A stretch of 64,000 nt of DNA from Anaerolineae bacterium (GTDB lineage: Bacteria > Chloroflexota > Anaerolineae > Promineifilales > Promineifilaceae), in the NCBI GenBank assembly GCA_023954475.1, contig JAMLHW010000008.1, positions 62,001 through 126,000 of the forward strand, written 5' to 3'. Made by a program: the position numbers and the translations under genes. The notes under the pieces were generated by a model, which made no database searches, had not been told where the DNA came from, and saw nothing but the letters and a program-made list of their open reading frames with translations. Numbering within the stretch: the stretch's first letter is position 1; each line of letters begins with the position of its first letter. Positions 15,592 through 18,389 of the stretch are shown piece after piece.

Positions 15592-16552
15592 GCATCAATC
15601 TCTCTTGAGTACCTTCGGCCGAACCAACGCAACGAGTTAAGGTCGAGACTCAAGGTACGATTCGTTTCAATCTCTCTTGAGTACCTTCGGCCGAACCAAC
15701 CCCACATACAAACCCCAATAGCAGGTGTCTGCCGAGTTTCAATCTCTCTTGAGTACCTTCGGCCGAACCAACGGTGGTTGGGATTTTGTTATCTTGGGTA
15801 TTGGTTAGTTTCAATCTCTCTTGAGTACCTTCGGCCGAACCAACGACAAATGATCAAAAAGCCGAATCTCCAAAGAGATGGTTTCAATCTCTCTTGAGTA
15901 CCTTCGGCCGAACCAACGATTGCTTCGGCGTTCGGACCTCTTACCCTGCTGAGTTTCAATCTCTCTTGAGTACCTTCGGCCGAACCAACTAGCGGCAGCG
16001 GTGACATCAAAATTAATGGTGGACAGTTTCAATCTCTCTTGAGTACCTTCGGCCGAACCAACTTGTTTGACCTGATGGTATATTGCACTCTTGCTTTGGT
16101 TTCAATCTCTCTTGAGTACCTTCGGCCGAACCAACGCTGTCGATATGGATCGGAAAATCAAGGTAGTTGGTTTCAATCTCTCTTGAGTACCTTCGGCCGA
16201 ACCAACTAGGTAAACTAGCCCTAAACTAGTTTAGCCTAGCTAGTTTCAATCTCTCTTGAGTACCTTCGGCCGAACCAACCTTGCACGCAATTTTCAACAC
16301 AGCGGTTGTGAAATGGTTTCAATCTCTCTTGAGTACCTTCGGCCGAACCAACTCATTACAGCCTTTGACCCAAGTTCGGGTGCAGAAGGTTTCAATCTCT
16401 CTTGAGTACCTTCGGCCGAACCAACCTGGTGGGGCAAGAAGCTACGGTTGAATGCACATGGTTTCAATCTCTCTTGAGTACCTTCGGCCGAACCAACACC
16501 CACATTCATACGAATGGTGGTCGCCACGGATTGAGTTTCAATCTCTCTTGAG
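15592..16552 (-). CRISPR. CRISPR array, 13 complete repeats, 13 spacers and one truncated repeat
   Basis: The 37-bp repeat reads GTTTCAATCTCTCTTGAG then TACCTTCGGCCGAACCAAC on the plus strand. Repeats start at 15592, 15664, 15736, 15808, 15881, 15953, 16026, 16099, 16170, 16243, 16316, 16389, 16461 and 16535; spacers are 34-37 bp and all different. The minus strand is the likely sense strand, because the repeat then ends in ATTGAAAC, the common crRNA 5' handle. In agreement, the leftmost repeat is degenerate (GCATC in place of GTTTC) and is followed by a terminator. At the leader end the repeat at 16535 keeps only its first 18 bases and then runs into an IS. No cas gene lies in the window. 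Each full repeat carries TTCGGCCGAA. Confidence 0.98.
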
Positions 16553-18389
16553 GGTTGGGCATGGGTGAAGCGTGGCTACGTTTTTCGTATCCACGGCTAC
16601 GTTTATTGTAGCATAGGAGAAGAAAAACGCGGCAGGAGTGAAACTGACACCGCGTTTATCACCCGCAGAACGTAGCTGCCACGTCGCCGCAGTCGCGTTT
16701 TTCGCGGCATTACAGAACCTGGGCTACGTTTGAAAATGTAGCGGTGTCTCTCCATCAGGTACACTGTAATCGCGACAAAACAGACCCATCAAGGAGAGAC
16801 ACCCTAATGAAACTGTATCACACTATGATGACAAGACGTGCTTGGAAAGCATGGCTGACACCACAAACGCCATGGCCGACTCATCTACCCCGCTTGCTTC
16901 TATCTCACCAGTATCAGCCCCACTTTGTACACCACTGTCCGGTCACACAAGCGGCTGGCTTGTATTTACGCTTGCTGGATTGGGAGCAGTTGCCAACCAC
17001 ACTGGCCATGCAACATATTGGCGAACGCACAATCCCACTGGCTGCCTATGTGGGCGCATACCTTGTCAAACTCGACCAGCAGTTAGCCACATTCGGCGCG
17101 TTGCGACGCTATTTGCGCGAACATCCGGCATTGGTCTGGGCACTCGGATTCCCGCTGGTAGCACAGCGTTCACATACCGACCGGCTGGATGTTGAAGCAT
17201 CGTTGCCATCGCAACGTCATTTCAGCAAGAAACTGAGCACATTGCCCAATGAAGTGCTGCAATTGCTGCTGGACGGACAAGTCACCTGGCTCATCGAACA
17301 ATTGGGTGACAACTTTGGCGACATCGTCAGCACCGACACCAAACATATCCTCGCCTGGGTCAAAGAGAACAATCCAAAGGCGTACATAAAGGAAGGCCGC
17401 TTCGACAAAACACAGCAGCCGATAGGCGACCCCGATTGCAAATTGGGCTGCAAACGCCGTCGCAACCAGGTCACACCGACTAAAGAAGGACAACCGGTCA
17501 GCGAAAAAGTCAGCGTCGGTGAATTCTACTGGGGCTATGCCAGCGGCGTTGTGGCGACCAAAGTACCCCGTGTTGGCGAGTTTGTCCTGGCTGAATTGAC
17601 GCAGACCTTTGACAATGGCGATCTGAGTTACTTCTTGCCGCTAATGGCACAAGTCGAACAGCGTCTTGGGCGTCGTCCACGTTACGGAACGGCCGATGCC
17701 GCGTTCGATGCATTCTACGTCTACGACTACTTCCACAGCGACAAGCATGACGGCTTTGCCGCCGTTCCCCTGCGGAAAATGGGATACAGTCGTACTTTCA
17801 ATGAGGAAGGATTGCCGTTGTGCGAAGCAAGTTTGCCAATGCCTTTGACAGGCACATTTGTCAGCCGCACTGGACTGGTGCAACATCGACGCGGTCGTTA
17901 CGGTTGTCCGCTTCTGCACCCACAGCCCAATAGTCTCACTTGTCCGATTGACCACGCCAAGTGGCCCAATGGCGGCTGCAAAACCACCATGCCCACGGCT
18001 GATGGAGCACGTCAACGTTATCTGCTAGACCGAGAGAGCGACCGCTTCCGCGCCGTTTTCAAGCAGCGCACCGCTGTCGAGCGCATCTTCAGTCAGGCGG
18101 TGGCGCTAGGCATTGAGCGCCCCAAACTGCGTAACCGACTGGCGATCACCAACATCAACACGTTGACCTATATCCTCATCAATTTACGAGCCATGCACCG
18201 TGTGCTCGCAAATCCTGACTCTGACATTTGCTAGTTTCAATCCCTGATTGATGTAGAGCGATGGTGTGTGTTTTGTCGCAATTTCACGCCACTGTGCTAT
18301 TTGTGTACTTCAATCGCTGGGACGTTCTACCAGAGAGGAATCTGAAAACGTAGCCAGGGTAAAAGCCTTTTTACCTATGCCCAACCCTC
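16550..18389 (+). mobile_element. Insertion sequence in the leader-proximal CRISPR repeat
   Basis: About 1.84 kb. Inverted ends read GAGGGTTGGGCAT at 16550-16562 and the same sequence in reverse at 18377-18389, continuing imperfectly. The decamer GGCTACGTTT recurs near the ends (16574, 16595, 16722, and inverted at 18346-18355) and could be a transposase binding site. One transposase gene lies inside. No target duplication is seen: the left flank is half of a CRISPR repeat, while the right flank (TTTTCACGAC onward) does not continue that repeat. Insertion was therefore followed by deletion or rearrangement. No TCGGCCGA site occurs inside. Confidence 0.85.
16807..18234 (+). CDS. DDE transposase (family not assigned)
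   Basis: A 475-residue transposase. The start at 16807 follows AAGGAGAG at good distance; the longer frame from 16744 has no such site. Catalytic acids are probably D in VSTDTKHI (near residue 178), D in YGTADAAFDAFY and E in RTAVERIFSQAVALG, which fit a DDE_Tnp_1-like RNase H fold. Between the aspartates is a basic, cysteine-containing stretch (DPDCKLGCKRRRNQ) and later a CP/CPID cysteine group, so a zinc-binding insert is possible. It resembles unclassified ISNCY/IS5-like transposases; a family cannot be given by eye. The frame is intact. Confidence 0.85.
   Translation: MKLYHTMMTRRAWKAWLTPQTPWPTHLPRLLLSHQYQPHFVHHCPVTQAAGLYLRLLDWEQLPTTLAMQHIGERTIPLAAYVGAYLVKLDQQLATFGALRRYLREHPALVWALGFPLVAQRSHTDRLDVEASLPSQRHFSKKLSTLPNEVLQLLLDGQVTWLIEQLGDNFGDIVSTDTKHILAWVKENNPKAYIKEGRFDKTQQPIGDPDCKLGCKRRRNQVTPTKEGQPVSEKVSVGEFYWGYASGVVATKVPRVGEFVLAELTQTFDNGDLSYFLPLMAQVEQRLGRRPRYGTADAAFDAFYVYDYFHSDKHDGFAAVPLRKMGYSRTFNEEGLPLCEASLPMPLTGTFVSRTGLVQHRRGRYGCPLLHPQPNSLTCPIDHAKWPNGGCKTTMPTADGARQRYLLDRESDRFRAVFKQRTAVERIFSQAVALGIERPKLRNRLAITNINTLTYILINLRAMHRVLANPDSDIC

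Follow-up and report, generated by a model that had tools for sequence, protein, structure and literature searches.

Every complete repeat of the CRISPR array in the 64,000-nucleotide stretch of DNA analyzed here (the window) contains a palindrome that is iterated throughout its genome. This repeat palindrome is probably the lineage's copy of a family-wide iterated palindrome with the core CGGCCG, the same genome-wide process shaping both genome and repeats. In relatives with a defined palindrome type, repeats with a symmetric octamer carry the type of their host; a chance origin unconnected with the palindrome of the genome is therefore unlikely.

RESULTS

The array extends from 15592 to 16552, as the earlier note gave. 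Its complete part (15592 to 16497, minus strand; minus-strand repeat, GTTGGTTCGGCCGAAGGTACTCAAGAGAGATTGAAAC) comprises 13 repeats of 37 bp and 12 spacers of 34 to 36 bp, i.e., direct repeats of the same sequence separated by regular, unique spacers, as defines a CRISPR array. Searching the 5.12-Mb genome that holds the window (G000) for the repeat GTTTCAATCTCTCTTGAGTACCTTCGGCCGAACCAAC with up to 3 mismatches revealed 12 perfect copies and 1 copy with 2 mismatches, and no further copies outside the array. At the same threshold, 395 further genomes from the class (a sample without G007) yielded no copy of the repeat. The copy with mismatches is the trailer-end repeat (15592 to 15628, minus strand), which reads GCAT.. 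for GTTT.. and has an intact palindrome. At the opposite end, an 18-bp stump of the leader-proximal repeat (16535 to 16552, minus strand) lacks the palindrome-side half. Repeats processed by Cas6 usually end at the 3′ side with the 8-nt handle ATTGAAAC. Because the minus strand ends with ATTGAAAC and the degenerate repeat lies at the left, the crRNA strand is most plausibly the minus strand, with the leader side at the right.

On that side, the array adjoins an insertion sequence (16550 to 18389, plus strand) with 20-nt inverted repeats at 16550 to 16569 and 18370 to 18389. An open reading frame of 496 amino acids within it (16744 to 18234) had no Pfam match and is taken to be its predicted transposase. 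The leader-side repeat is cut at 16552 by this element, leaving no intact leader, and the missing repeat half was not present beyond the right end of the insertion sequence. Matches to Cas1 (PF01867), RAMP (PF03787), and Cas6 (PF10040) were absent from the 97.9% complete genome; as far as these three families go, G000 lacks the genes of a functional CRISPR-Cas system. Most likely, its array is an orphan relic, the leader side of which was cut by the insertion sequence.

The decamer TTCGGCCGAA was confirmed in all 13 complete repeats, including the degenerate end copy, as the earlier note had claimed. The first copy is located at 15614 to 15623, and the others, spaced 71 to 73 bp apart, start at 15686, 15758, 15830, 15903, 15975, 16048, 16121, 16192, 16265, 16338, 16411, and 16483. 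A random 37-mer of G000 contains the core hexamer with a probability of 6.3%, the octamer TCGGCCGA with 4.8%, and the decamer with 2.0%, so that the previously assumed chance of about 5 percent for a 37-bp repeat agrees with the measured value for the octamer. At genomic density, a coincidence would therefore be of low probability, yet possible; without genomic enrichment, the chance that a random 37-mer contains one particular 10-mer is, by arithmetic, ∼3e-5. A search of 84,980 species genomes for spaced copies of TTCGGCCGAA returned six loci, none of which is a CRISPR array (0/6). Thus, no CRISPR array with at least 3 spaced copies was detected in this set, from which records of the own genome may be left out, indicating that the decamer in itself is no common feature of repeats.

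In the whole genome, 3,215 copies of TTCGGCCGAA were counted versus 17 of a control with reversed letters. Within the window, 41 decamers are scattered outside the array between 518 and 62998, where a first-order Markov model predicts 0.12, and TCGGCCGA, the octamer with T..A flanks, occurs 98 times there (1.6 expected from the same model). Across 392 kb of G000 outside the array, we found 781 CGGCCG sites, where dinucleotide frequencies predict 194; of the sites found, 80% are TCGGCCGA (628 versus 10.1 expected). The earlier figure of one site per ∼600 bp is therefore valid for the octamer, but not for the decamer, which occurs about once per 1,600 bp. The palindrome thus resembles a highly iterated palindrome (HIP), such as HIP1 of cyanobacteria, in being an octamer strongly overrepresented genome-wide, at ∼1 per kb. 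Elsewhere in G000, a 78-bp tandem repeat comprises 4 copies, each with ATCGGCCGAT (L074, G000:C25:20001-40000, positions 1520 to 1830). Exactly spaced tandem repeats with TTCGGCCGAA were present in unrelated bacteria (L016 and L017 on CAMMMI010000001.1, L012, and L014).

For comparison, a search for Cas1 covered all 52 genomes of the family, the neighborhoods were taken, and repeats were extracted by script; related repeats were also collected by pattern. Palindrome types were counted outside arrays in 7 to 392 kb per genome, some samples comprising only 7 to 30 kb. CGGCCG turned out to be enriched in nearly all sampled members, with lineage-specific flanks that yield the octamer variants TCGGCCGA, ACGGCCGT, and GCGGCCGC. 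The T..A type was found in G000 and G007. Most genera of the family are of the A..T type (G003, G004, G005, G006, G009, G013, G016, G018, G020, G023, G024, G025, G026, G041, and others). G043 represents a G..C type; G008, G032 to G035, G037, and G047 to G049 have no fixed flank, and G011 showed no CGGCCG enrichment. A constant core with alternate outer letters among relatives (T..A, A..T, G..C, or unfixed) is a further HIP-like property; the cyanobacterial palindromes occur in the types HIP1, TCGATCGA, and GGGATCCC. Since flanks differ by lineage, counts of the decamer in relatives register the T..A type only.

Repeats with CGGCCG were identified in G000, G004, G007, G023, G025 (two arrays), G033, and G034. 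The repeat octamer is TCGGCCGA in both T..A genomes (13/13 repeats in G000 and 19/19 copies in G007, locus L211) and ACGGCCGT in two A..T genomes (10/10 in G004, locus L247, and 27/27 over the two arrays of G025). The type of the host was hence matched in all four genomes with a defined type and a symmetric repeat octamer (P = 0.009, based on few independent cases, after permutation of genome-type labels over the 14 array-bearing genomes). In G023, an A..T genome, the repeat reads ACGGCCGC with A..C flanks, which amounts to half a match. The repeats of G033 and G034 contain CGGCCG, and their genomes are without a fixed type. A reading as coincidence, based on CGGCCG in the repeats of G025, G023, G033, and G034, whose genomes lack the decamer TTCGGCCGAA, was dropped when CGGCCG types of their own were found in these genomes.

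CGGCCG is absent from the repeats of G005, G006, G008, G009, G013, G016, G032, G035, and G043, from the third array of G025, and from the I-E arrays of G003, G007, G026, and G041. Most repeats in palindrome-bearing relatives, among them the I-E arrays and several 37-bp lineages, thus do not contain it. The earlier note had regarded other arrays of the genome without the motif as evidence against a link; in relatives, such arrays do exist (the I-E array of G007 and the third array of G025). The note's suspicion that genomic palindrome and repeat are linked was partly borne out, in that octamer-bearing repeats of relatives with a defined type carry the variant of their host.

Five repeats from G000, G004, G023, and G025 can be aligned without gaps, and CGGCCG is invariant at crRNA positions 8 to 13, surrounded by variable letters. 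The related repeats of G033 and G034 contain it four bases further along, and the octamer of G007 is situated in a different repeat from that of this lineage. Genes for a reverse transcriptase (RT) and Cas1 lie beside the CGGCCG-bearing arrays of G004 and G025, accompanied in G025 by Cas2. These RT-Cas1 loci, which also encode WYL proteins and, in G025, Cas2 and a CARF protein, have 37-bp repeats that are homologous to those of G000 and contain CGGCCG in the corresponding place; G000 has the array only. In L247 (G004:C248:28000-43617) and L064 (G025:C61), the RT and Cas1 genes are part of a gene cluster, which in L247 also encodes a GTPase, a Tubulin_2 protein, a vWA protein, and GAF and WYL proteins. 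A literature search on RT/Cas1 gene clusters of this kind found nothing.

The earlier note had suggested that the palindrome supplies the crRNA stem and had proposed a fold prediction, which placed the stem elsewhere. A stem was predicted beside the 8-nt handle, with the sequence CTC-AAGA-GAG in G000, CCC-AUGA-GGG in G025 and G023, and CCC-UUUGA-GGG in G004. Its pairing probability was 0.46 in G000 and 0.79 to 0.99 in G004, G023, G025, G033, and G034. A hairpin within the palindrome reached a pairing probability of 0.17 or less, and the whole repeat folded no better than shuffled sequences. The predicted stem occupies crRNA positions 20 to 22 and 27 to 29, and the palindrome occupies positions 6 to 15. 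On the basis of folding and repeat comparison, the palindrome was rejected as a crRNA hairpin, and according to these predictions it seems to contribute nothing to crRNA formation.

Spacers of relatives with a defined type contained 9 octamers, compared to 18.7 expected at genome density and 0.2 expected from composition. The octamer is thus ∼43 times more frequent in them than composition predicts and half as frequent as in the host genome. The spacers in question are from G005, G009, G016, and G041. A mark that bars self DNA would leave spacers entirely free of the palindrome only in the case of invaders without it. Palindrome-bearing DNA therefore does enter arrays, so that a strict self-mark against adaptation was rejected, and the sources of spacers (invaders) apparently carry the palindrome too. 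A role in adaptation, another suggestion of the earlier note, is unsupported, given these spacers, the cut leader side in G000, and the lack of Cas1, Cas6, and RAMP matches there.

In G000, a single PF00145 enzyme and six matches to PF01555 were detected. No PF00145 match was obtained in the palindrome-rich genomes G004, G005, and G020, and the PF01555 matches of G005 were all weak. A PF00145 cytosine-5 methylase was therefore rejected as the common cause, also because the enzyme of G000 is, among those sampled, closest to that of G003 (45%) and not to that of the T..A genome G007. The gene for this sole PF00145 methylase of G000 (L108, G000:C20) is followed by one for a HATPase_c_3 protein; the pair looks like a candidate defense or modification module.

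DISCUSSION

Among published cases, CRISPR1 of Synechocystis sp. PCC 6803 comes closest; its repeats contain the HIP1 core CGATCG and are heavily methylated (PMC6604393). In both arrays, a genome-wide iterated palindrome is present in every repeat (13/13 in G000), forming a dense row of identical sites. However, CRISPR1 carries 7 of the 8 HIP1 letters, whereas the repeats of G000 carry the full octamer and decamer of their host, with the core CGGCCG. In Synechocystis, the motif forms the loop and part of the stem; in G000, it is located outside the predicted processing stem and hence not in a Cas6 stem-loop. Moreover, the search of G000 revealed no Cas1, Cas6, or RAMP genes. In cyanobacteria, HIP1 (GCGATCGC) is accompanied by alternates such as TCGATCGA, and Elhai tied iterated palindromes to cognate methyltransferases (PMC4390886). 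The palindrome described here is like these HIPs in being a palindromic octamer at about 1 per 600 to 1,000 bp with a constant core and lineage-specific outer letters, and unlike them in its bacterial group, its core, and the absence of PF00145 from several palindrome-rich genomes. A literature search for such iterated palindromes, limited to Chloroflexi, found nothing.

The most economical reading is that one process shaped the repeats and the remaining genome alike, the result being spread by repeat duplication during spacer acquisition. The process that creates or keeps CGGCCG sites genome-wide would also act on CRISPR repeats; it may be mismatch repair coupled to methylation, which has been proposed for the HIPs of cyanobacteria. 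Spacer acquisition copies changes of the leader-proximal repeat into new repeats, so that a single event at this position would yield a uniform array. Within one repeat lineage, the core is fixed at crRNA positions 8 to 13, outside the predicted processing stem, and the flanks would have changed to the type of the host (A..T in G004 and G025, T..A in G000). What limits this reading is that G004, G025, and G023 share one repeat lineage to which the G000 repeat is related, and that the T..A type of G000 and G007 may be due to shared ancestry. Two to three independent gains among ∼7 to 8 repeat lineages are only slightly above the 3 to 5% per repeat that would apply to ordinary genomic DNA.

Alternatively, a CRISPR function might keep the palindrome, either as a methylated or protein-bound site of the array or as part of the recognition site of the Cas1-Cas2 integrase that belongs to this repeat lineage. 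Such a function is possible, though on balance unlikely. The invariant core in the five aligned repeats, the presence of CGGCCG in the related repeats of G033 and G034, the RT and Cas1 genes adjoining such arrays in G004 and G025 (with Cas2 in G025), and the methylated precedent of Synechocystis CRISPR1 are all consistent with it. On the other hand, most repeats of palindrome-bearing relatives do without CGGCCG, octamer-bearing spacers demonstrate that the palindrome does not bar DNA from adaptation, G000 has no Cas1, Cas6, or RAMP match, and palindrome-rich G004, G005, and G020 have no PF00145 methylase. In Synechocystis, interference was unaffected by loss of the m5C mark (PMC6604393).

The match of repeat and genome is probably not a coincidence, and we consider an unrelated TTCGGCCGAA in the repeat quite improbable. 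By density alone, the octamer would be found in nearly one of 20 37-mers of G000, and the repeat of G034 holds TCGGCCGA in a genome without a T..A preference. Yet the flanks agreed with the host in all four qualifying genomes, and neither the small chance calculated without enrichment nor the lack of such arrays among the species genomes searched favors an accident. Least probable is a horizontal acquisition of the array from another T..A-type bacterium, whose genome the match would then reflect: the absence of the repeat from the 395 other genomes searched, the T..A type of G007, which belongs to another genus, and the lack of Cas1, Cas6, and RAMP matches would fit, but within the family, the repeats of G004, G023, and G025 align with it without gaps, and even then repeats would carry the type of their host.

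This array represents a second, independent case of an iterated palindrome in CRISPR repeats, with a different palindrome. New relative to Synechocystis is that across relatives, the repeat holds the host's own variant. It is also conceivable, though doubtful, that repeats are actively kept matched to the palindrome because the array site is used by a factor of the host, be it a methyltransferase, a binding protein, or the RT-Cas1-Cas2 integrase; a switch of the genomic palindrome type would then force a switch of the repeat. CRISPR repeats, being short, repeated, and time-ordered by their spacers, are a place to watch iterated palindromes arise or switch type, and the family, in which a single core is combined with different flank types and methylase genes are present in some members but absent from others, offers a setting for testing the methylation-based model of iterated palindromes.
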